NCBI GenBank assembly: GCA_023957995.1
Contig: JAMLGK010000004.1
Coordinates: forward strand, 1-64,000
Direction of reading: 5' to 3'
Length of the DNA stretch: 64,000 nt
Origin: Microthrixaceae bacterium
GTDB taxonomy: Bacteria > Actinomycetota > Acidimicrobiia > Acidimicrobiales > Microtrichaceae
The notes under the pieces: model-generated
The model's input: the letters and a program-made list of their open reading frames with translations, nothing else
Told to the model about the DNA's origin: nothing
Databases searched by the model: none
Shown here: positions 11,096 to 21,516 of the stretch, piece after piece
How positions within the stretch are numbered: the stretch's first letter is position 1
Layout: the number at the start of each line of letters is the position of its first letter
Translations under genes and position numbers: made by a program

Positions 11096-13105
11096 TCAGA
11101 TCTCGACGTGGGAACCGACTTCCACCACCTGTCCCGGTGGTAGTCCGAAGAAGCGCGATGCCGGCGCGGCCGAACGCAGCTGGATCGCGAACAACCGCTC
11201 CCGCCAGGGTGCCATCGTGTGGCGCGGTGTCGGGATCACCGTTTCGCGCCCGATGAAGAACGTGACCGAGCCCACGTCCTGTGCGACACCGTCCACGACG
11301 AGCCCGTCGATCGAACCGACCACGTCGGGTTTCTCCATGTAGCCGTGGCTCAACACCACCTGGTGGACTCCGCGGCCGATGTGTTCGACCGAGACCGCAG
11401 GTCCTGTGCCGTATGCCTCGGCACCGACGTGGACCGCAACCAGCAGCACCGTCTCGTGCATCGTGTGGTTGTGCGCCGTGTTGGTCCGCAGGGCGGGCGG
11501 TGCCACCCTCTGGCGGCTGTAGAGGAACACCGCGGTGCCCGGCACACGGATCAGGTCCTCGGGCAGCTCGGCGAGGAACTCGCCGATCTCCGTGGCCCCG
11601 GCGTCGAGGCGCTCGCCCACGGCCCGGCGACCGGTTCGCCAGGTGGTCATCATCATGATGATCACCAGCGCCACCGCTATCGGGAACCAACCTCCGCTCG
11701 GGATCTTGAACACGTTGGCGCCGAAGAAGCCGAGGTCGAGCACCGCGAACGGTATGCAGACCCCCAGGGCCTTGGCCGTGCTCCAACCCCACTTGTTACG
11801 AGCCAGCACGAAGAACAGCAGGGTCGTGATACCCATCGTGGCTGTGACGGCGATCCCGTATGCAGCCGCCAGCGAGGCCGAGCTCCCGAACGCGATCACC
11901 AACCCGATGCAGCCGATCGCCAGCAGCCAGTTGACCGTCGGCAGATAGACCTGCCCTGAATGTGCTGCGGAGGTGTGCTTGACCGTGAGCCGTGGCAGGT
12001 AGTCGAGTTGGGCGGCCTGAACGGTCAGGGAGAAGGCACCCGAGATCAGCGCCTGTGATGCGATGACCGTGGCGAAGGTGGCGAGGATCACCATCGGCCA
12101 GCGACTCCAGTCCGGCCCCATGGTGAACAACGGATTGTGGATCGCCTCGGGTTGCGAGATCAGCAGGGCACCCTGGCCGAAGTAGTTGAGCACCAGGGCC
12201 GGGAAGGCAACCATGAACCAGCCACGTCTGATCGGGAGACGCCCGAAGTGACCGAGATCGGCATAGAGGGCCTCACCACCGGTGACGACGAGGAACACCG
12301 AACCCAGCGAGAGGAATCCGTCGAACCCGGTGCGGGCCAGGTACTGGATCGCGTGCACCGGGTTGATCGCCGACAGCACCGAGTACTCACCGGTGATCCT
12401 CGTCACCCCGAGAACCGCGAGTGTGCCGAACCAGACGCACATCACGGGGCCGAACAGGGCACCGACCGCTCCGGTGCCGCGGCGTTGCATCGCGAAGAGT
12501 CCGATCAGGATGCCGATCGAGAGCGGCACCACCCAGGTGTGCAGCGACGGGTTGACCACCTCGAGGCCCTCGACCGCCGAGAGCACGGAGATGGCAGGCG
12601 TGATCACGCCATCGCCGTACAACAGGGCCATCCCGAACAGGCCCACGACCAACAGCGCCCACATCCGCCCCTTGACCCGACCTCGACCGACCACCAGTTC
12701 GGTGAGCGCCAGGATCCCGCCCTCGCCGTGGTTGTCGGCCCGGAGGATGAACACGATGTACTTGATCGACACGACCAGGATCAGCGACCACAGGATCAAC
12801 GAACAGGCACCGACCACATTGGCTTCGGTGACCGCGATCCCGTGGCCCTCGAAGGTCTCACGGAATGCGTACAGAGGGCTGGTGCCGATGTCGCCGAACA
12901 CCACCCCGAGCGCTCCCACGGTGAGCGCTGCCGCTCCCACCTTGGCGCCGGTGTGCTTGCCCCCGGATGACTCGACACCGGGAGAGGACTCGACGACAAC
13001 ACCATCAGGCCCGCTGCCGTCCGGTACGGCGTCACCGGGCAACCCGACGGACGGGTCGGAATCGCCACTCGTCGGTTTGCCCGGACCGGCGGAGGACTCA
13101 GTCAC
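11096..13105 (-). CDS. kup: Kup-type potassium uptake transporter
   Basis: A 669-aa K+ transporter of the KUP/HAK/KT family. A polar, likely disordered N-terminus (~1-50) is followed by twelve hydrophobic helices beginning with LTVGALGVVFGDIGTSPLYA, the family hallmark, plus LYGDGVITPAISVLSAVEGL. A soluble C-terminal domain follows from ~500. KUP proteins drive K+ uptake with protons. The GTG overlaps the end of the acyl-CoA dehydrogenase gene by 8 nt; a start further in, closer to the first helix, cannot be excluded. The TPP riboswitch begins about 25 nt after its stop. No K+- or c-di-AMP-type leader is visible. Confidence 0.93.
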   Translation of the reverse strand: MTESSAGPGKPTSGDSDPSVGLPGDAVPDGSGPDGVVVESSPGVESSGGKHTGAKVGAAALTVGALGVVFGDIGTSPLYAFRETFEGHGIAVTEANVVGACSLILWSLILVVSIKYIVFILRADNHGEGGILALTELVVGRGRVKGRMWALLVVGLFGMALLYGDGVITPAISVLSAVEGLEVVNPSLHTWVVPLSIGILIGLFAMQRRGTGAVGALFGPVMCVWFGTLAVLGVTRITGEYSVLSAINPVHAIQYLARTGFDGFLSLGSVFLVVTGGEALYADLGHFGRLPIRRGWFMVAFPALVLNYFGQGALLISQPEAIHNPLFTMGPDWSRWPMVILATFATVIASQALISGAFSLTVQAAQLDYLPRLTVKHTSAAHSGQVYLPTVNWLLAIGCIGLVIAFGSSASLAAAYGIAVTATMGITTLLFFVLARNKWGWSTAKALGVCIPFAVLDLGFFGANVFKIPSGGWFPIAVALVIIMMMTTWRTGRRAVGERLDAGATEIGEFLAELPEDLIRVPGTAVFLYSRQRVAPPALRTNTAHNHTMHETVLLVAVHVGAEAYGTGPAVSVEHIGRGVHQVVLSHGYMEKPDVVGSIDGLVVDGVAQDVGSVTFFIGRETVIPTPRHTMAPWRERLFAIQLRSAAPASRFFGLPPGQVVEVGSHVEI

Positions 13106-14249
13106 CGATGATGCCGTTCATCCTCGCCAGCGTGCGCAGCATGACCTCATCGGCACCTCCCCCGATCGACCAGAGCCTCGCGTCCCGGAAGAAGCGGGCG
13201 GGCCACAGTTCCTCCACGTAGCCCATTCCACCGTGGTACTGCACCGCCAGGTCCGCCATGCGCCGGCCGAGGCGCGCCGCACAGAGCTTCGCCACGGTGG
13301 CCTCGCGGGTGAAGTCCTCACCGCGGTTGGCCTTGGCGACCGTCACCCAGTTGTGGTGACGGTTCAGATCCAGCTCGGCAGCCACCTCGGCCAGGGAGTA
13401 CTGGAGGTGCTGGTTGGCGAGCAGGGGGCTGCCGAAGGCCACCCGCTCCTTCAGGTACTCAACCGTTCGTTGGAGCGCCAGCTCGGTGGCGCCGACCATC
13501 TGGTAGGCCGCGATCATGCGTTCGTCCTGGAACTGGGCCATCTGCTGCTGGAACCCGCGACCGGGCTCCCCGATGGTGTTCGACACCGGCACCCGGCAGT
13601 CGTCGAAGGACAACTCTGCGGTGTCGGAGCCGCGCATACCCAACTTGTCGAGCTTGCGACTGACCGAGAACCCGGGGGTGTCGGTCGGGACGATGATCTG
13701 CGACATACCCCGGTAGCCGCCCTCGTCGGAGGTCCGGGCGAGCAGGCACAGCCAGTCCGACTGGGTACCGCTGGTGATCCACATCTTGGTGCCGTTGATG
13801 ACCCATTCGTCGCCATCCTGCACCGCCCGCGTGCGGATCCCCGCCACGTCGGATCCGGCATCGGGCTCCGAGACCGCAATGGAGGTCACCATCTCGCCTG
13901 CGATCGCGGGTCGCAGGTACTTCTCCCGCAACTCATCGCTGCCGTACCGGTGCAGCGCGGGGGTGGCCATGTCGGTCTGCACCGAGATCGCCATTGCCAC
14001 GCCGAGCGATGCGCAACGGCCCAACTCCTCGCCGAGGATCATCTTGTAGGTGGTGTCGGACCCGCCACCGCCCCACCGCTCGTCGTAGGTGAGTCCGAGC
14101 AGGCCCAGTTGGCCCATCTTGGAGAACAGTTCCCGTGCGGGAAAGCTCCCGGATTCCTCCCACGCATCGGCGTGGGGGTCGATCTCCTTGCCCACGAACT
14201 CCCGGACAGTGTTCCGGAACATCTCGTGGCCCTCGGTGAACTCCAGCAT
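13098..14249 (-). CDS. Acyl-CoA dehydrogenase
   Basis: A 383-aa FAD enzyme with all three ACAD domains: helical N-domain (EMFRNTVREFV), middle beta domain (ITSGTQSDWLCLLAR) and C-terminal helical domain ending GGGADEVMLRTLARM. The usual C-terminal catalytic Glu (YEG of MCAD) is replaced by Gly, as in isovaleryl-CoA and long-chain dehydrogenases. There the base lies in helix G, and a Glu is present in the matching segment (FQDERMIAAYQ). A branched- or long-chain substrate is therefore more likely, though this is inference. AGGAG 5 nt before the ATG supports the start. Two tandem palindromes lie 22-53 nt upstream. Confidence 0.9.
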   Translation of the reverse strand: MLEFTEGHEMFRNTVREFVGKEIDPHADAWEESGSFPARELFSKMGQLGLLGLTYDERWGGGGSDTTYKMILGEELGRCASLGVAMAISVQTDMATPALHRYGSDELREKYLRPAIAGEMVTSIAVSEPDAGSDVAGIRTRAVQDGDEWVINGTKMWITSGTQSDWLCLLARTSDEGGYRGMSQIIVPTDTPGFSVSRKLDKLGMRGSDTAELSFDDCRVPVSNTIGEPGRGFQQQMAQFQDERMIAAYQMVGATELALQRTVEYLKERVAFGSPLLANQHLQYSLAEVAAELDLNRHHNWVTVAKANRGEDFTREATVAKLCAARLGRRMADLAVQYHGGMGYVEELWPARFFRDARLWSIGGGADEVMLRTLARMNGIIGD

Positions 14250-14461: not shown

Positions 14462-15604
14462 ATGTGGAGCCTTTTGCTCGCGACCGCGGGCTGGATCGCC
14501 GGTTGGCTCACCTTCGGTGCGCCCCAGCGACTCCGCGCCCGGTCCATCGACCTGCGGGATCCCTCACCATCGCCAACGACGTCCGATGCCCCGGAGCCTG
14601 TGCTCTCGGTGGTGATCCCGGCGCGCAACGAGGAGCACTCGCTTCCGCTGCTGCTGGCGGATCTGGCCGAACACGCGCCACCCGGCACGGAGGTGATCGT
14701 CGTCGATGACGACTCCGTCGACCGCACCGCGGAGGTCGCGGCCGGCTTCGACGGCGTGCGGGTCCTGCAGGCGGGTGAGAAGCCGGCGGGATGGGTGGGC
14801 AAACCATGGGCCTGTCACACGGGTGAGCAGGCCGCCCGAGCAGACATCCTGTGCTTCGTCGATGCCGACGTGCGTATCCGACCCAACTCGCTCGAAGCGG
14901 TTCTCGACCAGCACCGACAACGCGGCGGGCTGTTGTCGGTCCAACCGTTCCACGAGACCGAGCAGTTCTACGAACAGGGCTCCGCGTTGTTCGGCGCGGT
15001 GGCATTGATGGGCACCGGCACAGGCGACCGGAGCGCGCGCCCCCTTGCGTTCGGTCCCCTGATGGTGAGTTCGCGTGCCGACTACGACCGTGTGGGAGGA
15101 CACGCAGCGGTCCGTTCCGAGGTGGTGGAGGACATCGCCCTGGCCCGCCGCTTCGGCGACGAAGGTCTCCCGGTGGCCGTGCTGACCGGCGGGGACCTGG
15201 TGGCGTTCCGGATGTACCCCGAAGGCCCGCGTTCCATGTTCGAGGGCTGGACCAAGAGCTTCGCCACCGGTGCCGCCAACACGAGCCTCTGGCGACTCGG
15301 GCTCATCGTGCTGTGGTTGGCGGCGATGGGCACGGCCTTCGGGTTGGGTTGGGATGCACTCGTGTCGGGTGAGTCGGTGCTGGCCGGCGCCGTCATCTAC
15401 GCCGCGTACGCGCTCCAGCTCCGTGTGATGTTCGTCCAGGTGGGTCGCTTCGGACTGGTCACCGCGCTCGCATTCCCCCTGCTCCTCGGCTGCTTCTTCG
15501 TCGTGTTCTTCAGCTCCCTCTGGTACACGGTGGTGCGTCGCCAGGTTCGTTGGAGAGGTAGGTCGGTGCCCATCGTTGCGACGGGTTCCGCCCACGGAAA
15601 CTGA
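14462..15604 (+). CDS. CrtQ-like family 2 glycosyltransferase
   Basis: A 380-aa membrane-bound GT2 enzyme: N-terminal hydrophobic helix, GT-A domain with VIPARNEE (~51-58), VDDDS (~81-85) and FVDADV (~132-137), and C-terminal membrane helices (~275-365). Segments LLSVQPFH, AFGP, VAFRMYPEG and EGWTK match the S. aureus 4,4'-diaponeurosporenoate glucosyltransferase CrtQ, which transfers glucose to a carotenoid carboxylate. No carotenoid synthesis genes are in the window, so the acceptor here may be different. The ATG has TAGGAG 8 nt upstream. First gene of a three-gene plus-strand operon with the CrtO-like acyltransferase 2 nt downstream. Confidence 0.87.
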   Translation: MWSLLLATAGWIAGWLTFGAPQRLRARSIDLRDPSPSPTTSDAPEPVLSVVIPARNEEHSLPLLLADLAEHAPPGTEVIVVDDDSVDRTAEVAAGFDGVRVLQAGEKPAGWVGKPWACHTGEQAARADILCFVDADVRIRPNSLEAVLDQHRQRGGLLSVQPFHETEQFYEQGSALFGAVALMGTGTGDRSARPLAFGPLMVSSRADYDRVGGHAAVRSEVVEDIALARRFGDEGLPVAVLTGGDLVAFRMYPEGPRSMFEGWTKSFATGAANTSLWRLGLIVLWLAAMGTAFGLGWDALVSGESVLAGAVIYAAYALQLRVMFVQVGRFGLVTALAFPLLLGCFFVVFFSSLWYTVVRRQVRWRGRSVPIVATGSAHGN

Positions 15605-15606
15605 GC

Positions 15607-16116
15607 GTGCCGCGTCCACTCGCCGATGCGAGCCCACTGGTCGCCGTCGCAGCACTGGCCGCGGTCTGGCTGTTCATAGGCATCGCGTCGGGCCTCGGAG
15701 CCAGGGCGCTCACGGCTGCGTTCCTGGCCAGGGACACCTGGTTGAGCCGACCTCGCGCCTTCGAGGATGGTGGAAGGTTCTACCAACGCAGGCTGCGGAT
15801 CCGGGCGTGGAAGGACCTGCTGCCCGAAGCCGGCCGAACACTCGGTGGAGACCACTCCAAGGCCCAGTTGGGCAGTCCCGACACCGCATCGCTGGAGCGC
15901 TTCGTCGCCGAGACCCGCAGGGCTGAGTACGTCCACTGGGTGCACGTGGGTGCCGGGCCGTGGTTCTTCCTGGTGCTCCCGCCGTGGGGAGGATTGGTCA
16001 TGACCGCCTTCGGCGCCTTGGTGCACCTGCCGTTCGTCTGCATCCAGCGCTACAACCGCCCTAGGTTCCAACGGGTGATCGAACGAAGGTCCAGGCGGGG
16101 GAAGGCCGACTCATGA
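15607..16116 (+). CDS. CrtO-like glycosyl-carotenoid acyltransferase family protein
   Basis: A 169-aa protein with two or three hydrophobic helices (~10-32, ~112-145). It matches the small S. aureus CrtO acyltransferase at its diagnostic places: WKDLLPEAG (~68-76), RRAEYVHW (~104-111) and QRYNRPR (~147-153). CrtO esterifies the sugar of a glycosylated carotenoid with a fatty acid. Placed 2 nt after a CrtQ-like gene, it most likely acylates the glycoside made by that enzyme. Its own ATGA stop overlaps the start of the alkyl-DHAP-synthase-like gene. GTG start, confirmed by the tight spacing. Family assignment is strong; the lipid substrate is unknown. Confidence 0.82.
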   Translation: MPRPLADASPLVAVAALAAVWLFIGIASGLGARALTAAFLARDTWLSRPRAFEDGGRFYQRRLRIRAWKDLLPEAGRTLGGDHSKAQLGSPDTASLERFVAETRRAEYVHWVHVGAGPWFFLVLPPWGGLVMTAFGALVHLPFVCIQRYNRPRFQRVIERRSRRGKADS

Positions 16117-17762
16117 GTGCGGCGCAACGGTCCTGGTGGGGTTGGGGCCTCGCGGACCACGCCGTGCCAGCAGCCGAGGTGGAGGCGATGGCGCCGCTGG
16201 TTTCGCAGTCGCTCGGCTGTGAAGTGCAGCGGCGCGAGCCCGCGACCCTCGCCTCGCTGCAGCTGCGTGAACCACGGATCGCTGCACCACACTCGCTGTC
16301 GGAGATCTGCTCGGTCGAGGTGGAGGACCGCGCCGGGCACTCCTACGGCAAGTCGTTCCGCGACGTGGTGAGGGGATTCCGCGGCGAGTTCCCCAACCCA
16401 CCCGATGCGGTCGCCCGACCCCGCAACGAGGCCGAACTCGTTTCGCTGCTGGACTGGTGCGGCTCCGAGGGCATCGCTGCCATCCCCTACGGGGCGGGTT
16501 CCTCCGTGGTGGGTGGGGTGGAGTCCGGTGGTGAATGGGACGAGCAGTTCAACGGTGTCGTCTCGATCGACCTGGTCCACCTCGACCGGGTCGTCGAGGT
16601 GGACCACGAGTCACGAGCGGCCCTGATCCAGGCGGGGGCCACCGGCCCGCGCCTGGAGGATCAACTGCGCCCGCACGGACTGACCCTGCGCCACTACCCA
16701 CAGTCATTCGAGTTCTCGACGCTGGGGGGCTGGATCGCGACCCGCTCCGGCGGTCACTACGCCACCGGGCGGACCCACATCGAGGACTTCGTGGAGTCCA
16801 CCCGCATGATCACCCCGCGCGGACCCATGGAGTCCCGCCGGTTGCCCGGATCGGGAGCGGGACCGTCGCCGGACCGACTGGTCGCCGGTTCCGAGGGCAT
16901 TCTCGGGGTGATCAGCGAGGCCTGGATGCGTCTGCAGGACCGTCCGGCGCACAAGGCGACCGCAGCGATCCCCTTCGACTCCTTCGCGTCGGGCGTCGCG
17001 GCTGCGCGGCGACTGGCCCAGAGCAGCCTGTGGCCGACGAACTGCCGGCTGCTCGATCCGGGCGAGGCGGCGGCCAACGCAGGCGGAGCGGGCGAGGCGA
17101 TCCTGGTACTGGGATTCGAGTCCGCTCACGAGCCGGTCGACGCGGACATCCGCGCCGCACTCGAGATATGTGCTGACTCCGGCGGGGATGTATCCGCCGG
17201 CGCCCGGATCAGTGGTCCCCCCGGGAGCGGATCAGCCGGCGAGACCTCTGACGCACAGAGCGCCAGCGCACCGCACCCTGCTGAATCGTGGCGATCAGCA
17301 TTCCTGCGAGCGCCCTATCTCCGGGATGCGATGGTGTCCCTCGGATGCATCGCGGAGACCTTCGAGACAGCGGTCACCTGGGACCGCTTCGACGAGCTCC
17401 ATCAGGAAGTGACCAGAACGGCCGCGGATTCACTGGCCCGGGTGTGTGGAGGAGGCACCCTCACCTGCCGCTTCACCCACGTCTACCCGGACGGCGTCGC
17501 GCCGTACTTCACCGTTCTCGCACCGTCGCGCCACGGCGAACAGCTGGCCATGTGGGACGAGGTCAAAGCAGCGGTCAGTGAGGCCATCTTCGAGACCGGC
17601 GGCACGATCACCCACCACCATGCGGTCGGCCGCGACCACCGCGGTGTGTATGACCGCCAACGACCCGACCTGTTCGCCGAGGCGCTCGGTGCAGCCAAGT
17701 CGACCCTCGACCCCGACGGAATCCTCAACCCCGGGGTCCTGATCGATCCGCGCAGGCCCTGA
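16113..17762 (+). CDS. Alkyldihydroxyacetonephosphate-synthase-like FAD enzyme
   Basis: A 549-aa flavoprotein of the VAO/PCMH fold: FAD_binding_4 domain at ~85-270 with the pyrophosphate-binding AAIPYGAGSSVVGG, and a FAD-oxidase C domain to the end. The HHHAVGRDHR motif at ~501-510 corresponds to the active-site His stretch of eukaryotic alkyl-DHAP synthase (AGPS), which swaps the acyl chain of acyl-DHAP for a fatty alcohol to make ether lipids. A Gly/Ser/Ala-rich insertion (17187-17290) interrupts the C domain and is unusual. It overlaps the CrtO-like gene by 4 nt (ATGA). Ether-lipid synthesis is a likely but unproven role; other VAO-family oxidations remain possible. Confidence 0.85.
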   Translation: MSAAQRSWWGWGLADHAVPAAEVEAMAPLVSQSLGCEVQRREPATLASLQLREPRIAAPHSLSEICSVEVEDRAGHSYGKSFRDVVRGFRGEFPNPPDAVARPRNEAELVSLLDWCGSEGIAAIPYGAGSSVVGGVESGGEWDEQFNGVVSIDLVHLDRVVEVDHESRAALIQAGATGPRLEDQLRPHGLTLRHYPQSFEFSTLGGWIATRSGGHYATGRTHIEDFVESTRMITPRGPMESRRLPGSGAGPSPDRLVAGSEGILGVISEAWMRLQDRPAHKATAAIPFDSFASGVAAARRLAQSSLWPTNCRLLDPGEAAANAGGAGEAILVLGFESAHEPVDADIRAALEICADSGGDVSAGARISGPPGSGSAGETSDAQSASAPHPAESWRSAFLRAPYLRDAMVSLGCIAETFETAVTWDRFDELHQEVTRTAADSLARVCGGGTLTCRFTHVYPDGVAPYFTVLAPSRHGEQLAMWDEVKAAVSEAIFETGGTITHHHAVGRDHRGVYDRQRPDLFAEALGAAKSTLDPDGILNPGVLIDPRRP

Positions 17763-17811: not shown

Positions 17812-18639
17812 CTAGGCCCTGACCGGGCGGATCAACAACTGGCCCGAACCCGACGCCGCCAGAGCGCCCGACCGGGTCCAGACCTCGGAACGGAATCCGG
17901 CCAGGCCTCTCTGCGCCACGGGCGCGGAACCCGAACAGAGCAACCATTCCCCCAAGCCGTCGAGCCGGTGGAACTGGACCGCCAGGTCCAGGTTGGGAGC
18001 GATCCAGGTCATGGCGGAACCGCCCGGGTGGGCCCTGCTCGCAGCGGGGAACGACGGCAGGTCTGCCAGCACGAGCAGCCGACACGCCTCGAGCACGGGA
18101 TCGGTGAACGCGGGATCCGGGTCGAATCGCAACCATTGGTTCCAGACCGGCTCCCCGCCCGGGTAGGACTCCCAGTCCAGCACCGGATCCACCGGCCTGC
18201 TCTCGAAGTTGTCCCAGAACGGGAACGGCGACGGAGTGTCGCTGAGTTCGCTCATGTCCGCGTGGTCGTCGGGGTCGCCGTGAGCATGTCCCCCCGCGTG
18301 GTCGTGGACGATGTGCTCGTCCTCGACCGCGAACCACACCTGGCAATCGAGGATGTCAGCTCCCTGCTGGAGCATCCTGACCTGCAGTGCCGCGGTTCGC
18401 CGGCCGGCGCGGCGCGTCTCGACCGCCAACTCGACCGGGCCGAACTCCGCCGGCCGGAAGAACTGACAACTCAGCGACGCCGGTCGCAACCCGGGCTCGA
18501 CCTCGGCGGCGGCCGCTCGCAGCGCCAACGACGCCGCATATCCCCCCATGGGACCCCAGATCCGCCAGTCCTCCGAGAGCGTGGCGCGGTAGACCCCGTC
18601 GCTCGGGTGGACCTCGGTGTCGTGCGCCAGTGATCCCAT
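17812..18639 (-). CDS. Acyl-CoA thioesterase family protein (double hot-dog)
   Basis: A 275-aa protein with two hot-dog halves of the TesB/4HBT_3 type: the first includes WGPMGGYAASLALRAAAA and SLSCQFFRPAEFGPV, the second TWIAPNLDLAVQFHR and LAGFRSEVWTRSGALAASGS. Such enzymes hydrolyse acyl-CoA thioesters. The His/Asp-rich stretch HDHAGGHAHGDPDDHAD (~113-129) between the halves is unusual and could bind metal. It is read on the same strand 44 nt after the pilin-like genes but appears to have its own leaderless promoter, so it need not belong with them. Converges with the AGPS-like gene over 49 nt. Confidence 0.8.
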   Translation of the reverse strand: MGSLAHDTEVHPSDGVYRATLSEDWRIWGPMGGYAASLALRAAAAEVEPGLRPASLSCQFFRPAEFGPVELAVETRRAGRRTAALQVRMLQQGADILDCQVWFAVEDEHIVHDHAGGHAHGDPDDHADMSELSDTPSPFPFWDNFESRPVDPVLDWESYPGGEPVWNQWLRFDPDPAFTDPVLEACRLLVLADLPSFPAASRAHPGGSAMTWIAPNLDLAVQFHRLDGLGEWLLCSGSAPVAQRGLAGFRSEVWTRSGALAASGSGQLLIRPVRA

Positions 18640-18683: not shown

Positions 18684-19667
18684 TCAGGGGGCGTCGAGGT
18701 AGGCGTCCACCGCGAAGGCATCCGCAGCCCATGGAACTCCCGATGGCGCCTCGACAGAGCTGATGGTCAACCGGACCTCGATGACGGCAGTGCTGCCGGT
18801 GCGTTCGTAGCTCTTCGAGTGGATCGGGGCGGTTCCGTCCGAACCTGTGCGCGCCGTCGTGGACTTTTCGGAATGCCATCCGCTCGAGTCGCGGTACATC
18901 ACGGACACCGTCACCCGGACCTTCTCCACGGGCTCGCCCAGTTGGTCCGACACCTTCACCACGCCCGCCGCGCGCCACTTCTTGTTGCCGGAACGCAGCT
19001 CACTGCTCGCCTGTTGCCACCAGGACCGAACCATCGGCTCCGGGATGGTCGTGGATGTGGTCGAGGTGGTGCTCGTCGTGGTGGTGGTGACCGGAGCCGA
19101 GGTGGTCGTGGTGGATGCGGCCGGAATCGTCGTGGTCGTCGTGGTCACCACCGGAACCGAAGTGGTGGAGGTCGTCGCGGTCCCACACGGCACCGCGTCT
19201 GCGGGCAGAGGACCCTCGACACCGTTCGCCCACCTGGTCACGACCGCCGCACCCGAATCGTCACCGCTGGCCGGGATCACGACGGTCGCAGCGACGCTGG
19301 CCAGATCCTCTGAGCCGTCGTGGCTGCGAACCACGGCATTCAGGGCCACGAACCGGTCATCCTCTCGGCAGTTCCCCTGGGGAACCTCCTGTTCGGCGCA
19401 GTCGACCAGGACCGTCATCCCGTCCACGATCAACGAAGTGCGATCGCACTCGTTCGCTGCTCCGGAGTCCTCGCTGACGAGGAGGTGTGTCGCCGCCTCG
19501 ATGCCCGATGCGGCCGCATAGGACTCGCGGGCCTCTTCACTCGCCGAGGCCCTGACTGCGAGCCCGACCATTGCCATCGAGATGATCGCCGGCACCAGGA
19601 TCGACACGAACACCATGAAGGCCAGAACGACCACCAGTGATGCGCCTGACTGGCCACGCCCCCTCAT
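18684..19667 (-). CDS. PilX-like exported protein with Thr-rich linker
   Basis: A 327-aa protein. The N-terminus (RGRGQSGASLVVVLAFMVFVSILVPAII) is a short basic leader plus a long hydrophobic helix like PilX-type minor pilins. The middle (~60-155) contains several Cys and an Ala-rich helix; residues ~160-215 are almost only Thr/Ser with some Val/Pro (low complexity); the C-terminal ~110 residues look like a beta-sandwich domain of Ig or cadherin type (VKVSDQLGEPVEKVRVTVSVMY). Overlaps the preceding pilin-like gene by 4 nt (ATGA). Likely an extracellular pseudopilus component with a stalked adhesive or sensing domain; this is inference. Confidence 0.7.
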   Translation of the reverse strand: MRGRGQSGASLVVVLAFMVFVSILVPAIISMAMVGLAVRASASEEARESYAAASGIEAATHLLVSEDSGAANECDRTSLIVDGMTVLVDCAEQEVPQGNCREDDRFVALNAVVRSHDGSEDLASVAATVVIPASGDDSGAAVVTRWANGVEGPLPADAVPCGTATTSTTSVPVVTTTTTTIPAASTTTTSAPVTTTTTSTTSTTSTTIPEPMVRSWWQQASSELRSGNKKWRAAGVVKVSDQLGEPVEKVRVTVSVMYRDSSGWHSEKSTTARTGSDGTAPIHSKSYERTGSTAVIEVRLTISSVEAPSGVPWAADAFAVDAYLDAP

Positions 19668-20176
19668 GACCGCCGCTTTGTGATCTGCAGCGACTCGGTC
19701 GCACCCTCAGACGTTCGAACGCTGAGTTGGATGAGCTGCAGCCCTGGATCCTCGGCCGGACAGGCCGCCGATGTGGGATCGCTGAATTCGAGTGTGGCGG
19801 AATCCGATCCCGCCGCGCTCGGTTTCCAGAAGCCGATCCTTGCCGTGACCTCGCCCAACCCGGTACCACCGGGCAGATCGGTGTATCCGGCCTGGCCCCT
19901 GCAACCCGCAAGATCGATGTAGTCGGTGCTGGGATCCTGCAGGATCTCCGCTGCTGATCGCAGCAGGGTTCCCGCATTCGCACCCTCGTCGTTGCTGGCG
20001 GAGGCTCGTAGCGACACCTGCATCCCGCCGTAGGCGGCGACGACGATGCTCGTGAGGATGGCAATGGCCAGCAGCGACTCGATCAGTGTTTCACCGCCCT
20101 GACCCCGGCCGGATGATCGGGACCGACCAGCGCGGTGGTGGACGGGCGAACGGGTTGCGGGCATCGGAACCATCAC
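19664..20176 (-). CDS. Prepilin-like (type IV pilin / pseudopilin) protein
   Basis: A 170-aa protein with a prepilin N-terminal methylation motif: basic leader ending GQGG, cleavage site, then ETLIESLLAIAILTSIVVAA with the Glu at +5 relative to the cleaved Gly. The C-terminal globular part holds four Cys (GCRGQ, ACPAE). The leader of ~28 residues is long for class a pilins. Start ATG overlaps the stop of the upstream prepilin gene by 4 nt, and its stop overlaps the next, so three genes form one coupled unit. No peptidase PilD, ATPase or PilC gene is in the window, so the assembly machine must be elsewhere. Confidence 0.8.
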   Translation of the reverse strand: MMVPMPATRSPVHHRAGRSRSSGRGQGGETLIESLLAIAILTSIVVAAYGGMQVSLRASASNDEGANAGTLLRSAAEILQDPSTDYIDLAGCRGQAGYTDLPGGTGLGEVTARIGFWKPSAAGSDSATLEFSDPTSAACPAEDPGLQLIQLSVRTSEGATESLQITKRRS

Positions 20177-21516
20177 TGGTCTCCGATCGTTACCCGAGCG
20201 TTGCCCAGCGCCGCCATGCTCCGGGCGATCACCGATCCGACCCCTACCTCAGCGCTGTTGAGTACCTGGAGTTCGGCGCCCGGCAGGTGCAGCAAAGATC
20301 CCGGGCTGACCACGCGCGCATTGCCCGACACGATGACCGGGTTGGTGTTTTCGCTTGGCTGGTCGACCAGCACGCCGGCGACGTCACCGTGATCGGGTGG
20401 GGTCAGCTCGACGCGTGCGTCGCTCTGGATACGCAGGCTCGACCTGGGGTTGTGGAACAGCACACCGTCACCCTGCAATGTCCCGTGTCCCATGTTCATC
20501 CCGTCAGACAGCACGTAGGTGCCGGCCTCGAGCCAGTAGTCGCTCACAGCTCCGGCCTTGGGCGGGAAGGCCTGCGGGTACACGCCGGGACTGCAGATCC
20601 GGACCTTCCCTTCGATGGGACAGTCGGTTCTGGTGGCTAGGTCCGTGGAATCCGGAACCACGAGTTCTGCTAGCGGATCCAGGACCGCTTGCGCGAAGCC
20701 ACCCGGCATTTGATCAGCGAACCCGTCGCAGCCGGTGCAGGTGGATCCCTGCTGCATTGCGAAGGTTCGCGACACCTCCAACCTGGGGTTGCCGTTCAGC
20801 AGGATCGCCTCGGTTCCCCCGGCCGGGCGGTTGACCAGTGCGTCACCCGTCACGGCGACCTTCGAGGAGTTGGAAACGGTCAACGGACGAAGCCCTCCGA
20901 GCAGCAACAACTGACCGTCGCGGCTGACCTCGATGGGCGCCTCCCCGGGTGCGACGACGTCGCTGCGCCGCACGCCTTCGAGCGTGAACTGGGAGGAGCC
21001 TTCAGGGGTCACCTGCAGGATCACCGAACGCGGTGTGGATCCAGCTACACACTCGGATCCATCGCACTCGAAGCGCGGTGGGAGTTCCAGATCCTCGAGG
21101 ACCGCCCGCTGCGCCGGAGCCTGAGAGGTCCTGGCGGCCGCTGCGGTCTTGCTCGCGGAGCCGACGCACTCCGAGCGCAGCAGCGTGTACGGAGCGGATT
21201 CAGACCTCCGGTACTCGACCGGGAGCCGCTCTGGGTCGGTCTGGGCCAGGGTGAGCAGGTGCACGCCGCCGGCACCCTTCGCACACTCCGCCAGCAATCC
21301 GGAGGAGCCCTGCACGTCGCGAGCGAAGGTCATGGAGACCAGGTCGACCGCTACCGCCCCCTTGGTGGTCTCGCTCACCGAGTCCTTGATCGACACCACG
21401 CCACCGATGCTCAGGGCGGTTGCTCCCACACCGATGATCGCCAGGATGGCCAGCGAGACCAGCACCTCGATCAATGTGAAACCGCCGGAGGATCTGGGTC
21501 GTCCGGACGTTCTCAC
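20173..21516 (-). CDS. Large prepilin-like protein with beta-rich passenger domain
   Basis: A 447-aa protein opening with a textbook prepilin signal: short basic leader, GG, then FTLIEVLVSLAILAIIGVGA. Residues ~30-190 form a pilin-like domain with several Cys; residues ~195-447 carry repeated short strands such as VSNSSKVAVTGDALV, LLNGNPRLEVS, VIVSGNARVVSPGSLLHLPGAELQV and LGNARVTIGD, the pattern of a right-handed beta-helix seen in pilus-linked DUF7305-type proteins. It is first of the three-gene pilin operon and probably the tip or large minor pilin. Divergent from the flavin reductase gene with a 162-nt gap. Confidence 0.78.
   Translation of the reverse strand: MRTSGRPRSSGGFTLIEVLVSLAILAIIGVGATALSIGGVVSIKDSVSETTKGAVAVDLVSMTFARDVQGSSGLLAECAKGAGGVHLLTLAQTDPERLPVEYRRSESAPYTLLRSECVGSASKTAAAARTSQAPAQRAVLEDLELPPRFECDGSECVAGSTPRSVILQVTPEGSSQFTLEGVRRSDVVAPGEAPIEVSRDGQLLLLGGLRPLTVSNSSKVAVTGDALVNRPAGGTEAILLNGNPRLEVSRTFAMQQGSTCTGCDGFADQMPGGFAQAVLDPLAELVVPDSTDLATRTDCPIEGKVRICSPGVYPQAFPPKAGAVSDYWLEAGTYVLSDGMNMGHGTLQGDGVLFHNPRSSLRIQSDARVELTPPDHGDVAGVLVDQPSENTNPVIVSGNARVVSPGSLLHLPGAELQVLNSAEVGVGSVIARSMAALGNARVTIGDQ

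Follow-up and report, generated by a model that had tools for sequence, protein, structure and literature searches.

A CrtQ/CrtO-type gene pair beside an alkyl-DHAP synthase-like gene in a Microthrixaceae genome in which no squalene/phytoene synthase was found

Staphylococcal crtOPQMN operons encode a family-2 glycosyltransferase and a CrtO acyltransferase of Pfam family PF18927 together with crtM, crtN and crtP; the role of CrtO is to acylate the sugar on a glycosylated carotenoid. As the staphylococcal reference we used the crtOPQMN operon of the Staphylococcus pasteuri plasmid NZ_CP031281 instead of S. aureus; this operon encodes the CrtO acyltransferase, a crtI-family protein, the glycosyltransferase, a member of the phytoene/squalene synthase family and a second crtI-family protein. 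Alkyl-DHAP synthase (AGPS) replaces the acyl chain of acyl-DHAP with an alkyl chain, and we take R419, R515, Y578 and H615-617 of the guinea-pig enzyme to be the catalytic residues. The related mycobacterial protein is AgpS of the Rv3107c type, whose gene lies near fprA and prfB in M. tuberculosis. The M. xanthus homologue of AGPS, MXAN_1676, accounts for a minor share of ether lipids and is encoded in an operon (MXAN_1676-1674) with a FAR1/GNPAT-like protein (PMC9131029).

The DNA analysed here (the window) comprises 64,000 nucleotides of contig JAMLGK010000004.1 from a Microthrixaceae bacterium, which we refer to as the host. The features under study, with one neighbouring gene, are as follows.

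13098..14249, minus strand: acyl-CoA dehydrogenase gene, a conserved divergent neighbour that marks the ancestral site, included as context only (synteny with nine family genomes and both genus-mates)
14462..15604, plus strand: GT, a CrtQ-type family-2 glycosyltransferase of 380 aa (Pfam; similarity to S. pasteuri and Picosynechococcus PCC 7003)
15607..16116, plus strand: CrtO-family acyltransferase (glycosyl-4,4'-diaponeurosporenoate acyltransferase family) of 169 aa (Pfam PF18927; similarity to staphylococcal CrtO)
16113..17762, plus strand: AgpS, an alkyl-DHAP synthase-like flavoprotein of 549 aa (phmmer to 2uuu and 4bby; residue alignment)

GT, CrtO and AgpS are real, coupled genes of the families first assigned to them. 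The original prediction described three coupled plus-strand genes, and the open reading frame coordinates bear this out, with GT and CrtO separated by 2 nt and CrtO and AgpS overlapping by 4 nt (ATGA). GT starts at the ATG at 14462 (14459 has a GTG in the same frame, and the mechanical open reading frame runs from 14303), CrtO at a GTG (15607) and AgpS at an ATG (16113). GC content by codon position shows the pattern of real genes in all three (0.81-0.83 at third and 0.51-0.55 at second positions) and is broadly like that of the adjoining acyl-CoA dehydrogenase gene. No promoter was found in a scan of the locus, and its single terminator-like site was at chance level.

The surroundings of the locus are partly common to the two genus-mates, G313 and G314. 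A kup-type potassium transporter gene (11096-13105), between the acyl-CoA dehydrogenase gene and a thiamine pyrophosphokinase-like gene, occupies this spot in the host, G313 and G314; no such gene turned up at this place in other family genomes, which have the rest of the block in common. On the other side, an acyl-CoA thioesterase (4HBT_3) gene adjoins AgpS in the host (17812-18639), while the stretch read in G313 had no thioesterase match and pilus-like genes directly after AgpS. Host and G313 have in common three minus-strand genes resembling a minor-pilin cluster (18684-21516), one of which (20173-21516) has an N_methyl match.

The first gene encodes a CrtQ-like glycosyltransferase, as originally proposed. 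It matches Pfam Glycos_transf_2 (4.4e-20) and is similar end to end to the glycosyltransferase of the S. pasteuri plasmid operon (34% identity, 335 aa, 219 bits); identity to the CrtO-adjoining glycosyltransferase of Picosynechococcus PCC 7003 is 39%. A search of the plasmid collection placed glycosyltransferases of Staphylococcus and Cytobacillus closest to the window GT (195-227 bits), and the other family-2 matches listed reached at most 126 bits, except for the CrtO-linked Picosynechococcus protein (214). The residues DAD at 134-136 form the DxD motif, the C-terminal part is hydrophobic, and conserved residues are kept in an alignment of about 40 relatives. The gene is also linked to crtO, being adjacent to it in the host and in most loci of the class. 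Two other identities that we considered, the NCBIfam families HpnB and CruG, scored far below their cut-offs.

Assignment of the second gene to the CrtO-like acyltransferases also held, with a PF18927 match of 4.1e-28 and 98.6 bits (curated cut-off 27.3) and 29% identity (74 bits) to S. pasteuri CrtO. Residues W68, K69, P73, G76, R105, E107, H110, P142, R148, N150 and R151 are invariant among the relatives that cover these columns. The motifs quoted in support of both families are present, but against the S. pasteuri reference they are near-matches, not identities: for CrtO, QRYNRPR (QRYNRPK in S. pasteuri) and RRAEYVHW (RRAEVVHL); for CrtQ, LLSVQPFH (LLSIQPYH), VAFRMYPEG (VNFRMYAQG) and EGWTK (EGWSK). 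The GT-CrtO pair of the cyanobacterial strain Picosynechococcus PCC 7003 is carried on a plasmid (L235:6905-8490) and has no carotenoid gene annotated nearby; its CrtO is labelled only a hypothetical protein.

The third gene also proved to be of the predicted kind, an AGPS-like flavoenzyme. AgpS matches the FAD_binding_4 and FAD-oxidase_C domains, and its best solved relatives by phmmer are alkyl-DHAP synthases, from Dictyostelium (2uuu, 4.8e-65) and guinea pig (4bby, 1.9e-52). Its residues R312, R404, Y465 and H501-H503 align with guinea-pig R419, R515, Y578 and H615-617, and none of them varies among nine orthologues. The quoted motif HHHAVGRDHR does correspond to the HHHGVG of AGPS, but the third histidine is followed by alanine rather than glycine.

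AgpS belongs to a widespread subfamily. Scanning named genomes, we obtained 80 loci at 51-62% identity, in Actinomycetota, Myxococcota, Binatia, Chloroflexota, a haloarchaeon and others, with genomes of Candidatus Microthrix and of Acidimicrobiales among the highest-ranked named matches. We considered the neighbourhood of AgpS as a functional clue and set it aside, as neighbours among the 80 loci were lineage-local only: a luciferase-like monooxygenase and an aminotransferase in Myxococcota, a TPP enzyme and a zinc ADH in Binatia, TetR in Streptomyces, and genes reading as fprA and prfB in mycobacteria. No neighbour was broadly shared, and no ether-lipid neighbour was conserved, among these loci. 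Neither GT nor CrtO lay within 6 kb of AgpS at any of the 80 loci across phyla, as far as the contigs reach.

Comparison with relatives indicates that AgpS and the GT-CrtO pair are separate units. AgpS was absent from the other CrtO loci of the class and family, in regions of up to 20 kb, so that as far as adjacency goes the trio was seen in the host only, an outcome that the original prediction, together with unrelated expression, had named as counting against it. In nine family genomes, the pair is divergent from the same acyl-CoA dehydrogenase gene with no AgpS. In G313 and G314, AgpS stands at the spot of the host pair after this gene, with no pair there; the G313 protein, encoded directly after the acyl-CoA dehydrogenase, is 72% identical to that of the host. 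No CrtO was found anywhere in the G313 genome, and no remnants of GT or CrtO were found between the acyl-CoA dehydrogenase gene and AgpS in either genus-mate. We rejected a CrtO remnant elsewhere in G314 as a syntenic pair, as it is a weak match with two stops in unrelated surroundings. Among 33 family genomes, a comparison that includes drafts, four have both AgpS and CrtO, eight AgpS only, 16 CrtO only and five neither, a mutual depletion (OR 0.16, Fisher p=0.027) that is not corrected for relatedness.

The original proposal was that the three enzymes form one pathway, either making an acylated glycolipid in which one chain is perhaps ether-linked or decorating a carotenoid made elsewhere. 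The genes lie on one strand at +2 and -4 nt, and ATGA coupling would normally hint at a common function of AgpS and CrtO. Furthermore, AgpS keeps the AGPS catalytic residues, and the host encodes a protein of the fatty acyl reductase type (NAD_binding_4), joined to a HAD domain, that could provide fatty alcohol. Against these points, the trio is adjacent in a single genome and does not recur in independent ones, each half is retained without the other, and the two co-occur less often than expected within the family. We regard a single pathway as very improbable, and the synteny of the genus-mates, the CrtO loci of class and family and the AgpS scan rule out a conserved three-gene operon. AgpS is probably not a step of the pair's pathway and probably acts separately. 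In the simplest history, the ancestor of the genus would have gained agpS by insertion after the pair, with translational coupling to CrtO by overlap, and G313 and G314 would then have lost the pair. The trio itself is a coincidental local arrangement of gene types that are both already known.

The GT-CrtO pair, on the other hand, recurs across the class. CrtO was present in 36 of 296 sampled genomes, and a homologous GT adjoins it in nearly all of the 30 loci fetched. Squalene/phytoene synthase (SQS_PSY) is encoded in 26 of these 36 genomes (22 of the 27 good ones), and in seven of the 26 it lies within about 6 kb of CrtO. Several genomes have the pair within a complete carotenoid cluster. 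In G157, a single cluster (L048) contains a lycopene-cyclase domain, a CrtZ-like FA_hydroxylase, CrtO, GT, SQS_PSY, a crtI_fam protein that scores 464 bits against a cut-off of 238, and a polyprenyl synthetase (GGPPS). Within the family, the synthase and CrtO are positively associated (OR 14.7, p=0.009). Judging from this carotenoid-cluster context, the acceptor that the pair glycosylates and then acylates in these relatives is most likely a hydroxylated carotenoid of the C40 type. DNA photolyase genes lie near GT-CrtO at two loci (L045:6681-8057 and L056:7026-8324), the second in a genome without SQS_PSY (G145).

The host departs from this pattern. Neither SQS_PSY nor a lycopene cyclase domain was found in its genome (96.8% complete, 36 contigs), and the best CrtI-like match, L031, reached 142 bits against a cut-off of 238 and was rejected as the host CrtI. 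The earlier observation that the window holds no carotenoid synthase or desaturase therefore extends to the whole genome, for SQS_PSY and for CrtI above its cut-off. SQS_PSY was likewise absent from G313 (94% complete) and G314, and from two genomes that keep the pair, G307 (97% complete) and G256 (95% complete). G307 contains two GT-CrtO pairs (L112 and L113), a sister lineage of the window GT. Carriers without the synthase, 14 of the 40 rows of the GT tree, occur at scattered positions in it (the host groups with G307, 100/98), and we rejected the idea of a single clade of such pairs. Since the host has no carotenoid synthase, the substrate of staphylococcal CrtO is unlikely to be present in it.

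An ordinary decorating pair, acting on xanthophyll glucosides, would be expected if the host made a carotenoid with a synthase missed in an assembly gap, or took one up from neighbours. The genome is incomplete and in 36 pieces, and relatives' pairs do sit in carotenoid clusters. Nevertheless, SQS_PSY is also absent from G313 and from the pair-keeping G307 and G256, and the host has only a sub-cut-off CrtI-like match and no lycopene cyclase domain that we could find, so we consider this explanation improbable.

The pair in the host also appears to be under selection. Synonymous divergence (dS) between host and G313 is 0.73-1.07 over five genes. With 0.3-0.5 changes per site on the host branch, neutral simulation gave a mean of 7.6-10.2 stops in GT plus CrtO, and no simulated case was free of stops; the actual frames are intact, with 0 stops in 550 codons. 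Absence of the synthase from all three genus genomes suggests that their common ancestor already lacked it, in which case selection has acted on the pair with no synthase present. Alternatively, each member of the genus could have undergone its own recent loss of the synthase.

These results bear on whether the pair is a relic that decorated an ancestral carotenoid, with the carotenoid genes lost recently and GT and CrtO not yet decayed. The association of synthase and CrtO in the family fits such a history, as does the lack of both synthase and lycopene cyclase in the host, and the absence of the pair from both genus-mates could signal its coming loss. However, the synthase is missing from G307 as well as from all three genus genomes, G307 keeps two pairs, and the host has preserved both frames and the conserved residues although roughly 7-10 stops would be expected under neutrality on its branch. 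We therefore think a relic rather unlikely and favour a non-carotenoid acceptor.

The explanation that we consider probable is that GT and CrtO are an inherited unit acting on a lipid other than an endogenous carotenoid, and that AgpS was inherited separately and belongs to another pathway. It builds on the observed families, adjacency and synteny of the genes, the missing synthase and the intact frames. By homology, which for CrtO amounts to 29% identity, GT would use a nucleotide sugar to glycosylate an acceptor, either a polyprenoid or another membrane lipid, and CrtO would then acylate the attached sugar. With no squalene/phytoene synthase found in the host, this acceptor is most likely a lipid other than an endogenous carotenoid. 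The acylated glycoside guessed at in the original prediction survives as the putative product of the first two genes.

More tentatively, pairs in carotenoid-less actinobacteria may represent a glycosylation-acylation module for a non-carotenoid membrane lipid, a repurposing of the last steps of staphyloxanthin synthesis in several lineages. The pairs are worth following, as they persist in well-assembled genomes without squalene/phytoene synthase, where annotation pipelines would label them "staphyloxanthin" genes. Either this label is misleading, or the bacteria in question have an acylated glycolipid that has yet to be described.

Compared with the known systems, the host has the family-2 glycosyltransferase and PF18927 acyltransferase of staphylococcal crtOPQMN (34% and 29% identity to S. 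pasteuri), but as an adjacent pair without crtM, crtN and crtP. Carotenoid clusters of the class (for example L048, L047, L049 and L055) contain orthologues of both genes, in most cases next to each other, beside genes for the synthase, CrtI, GGPPS and lycopene cyclase domains, whereas the host pair stands alone. The FAD fold and catalytic residues of AgpS are common to the guinea-pig (4bby) and Dictyostelium (2uuu) enzymes, with HHHAVG in the host against HHHGVG in alkylglycerone-phosphate synthase. Unlike MXAN_1676 in its operon, host AgpS has no FAR1/GNPAT-like neighbour. The mycobacterial AgpS resembles that of the host in sequence (about 55-57% identity), in its RSWWGWG N-terminus and in the THHHAVGR motif; it is, however, a stand-alone gene beside fprA and prfB, whereas the host agpS overlaps crtO.
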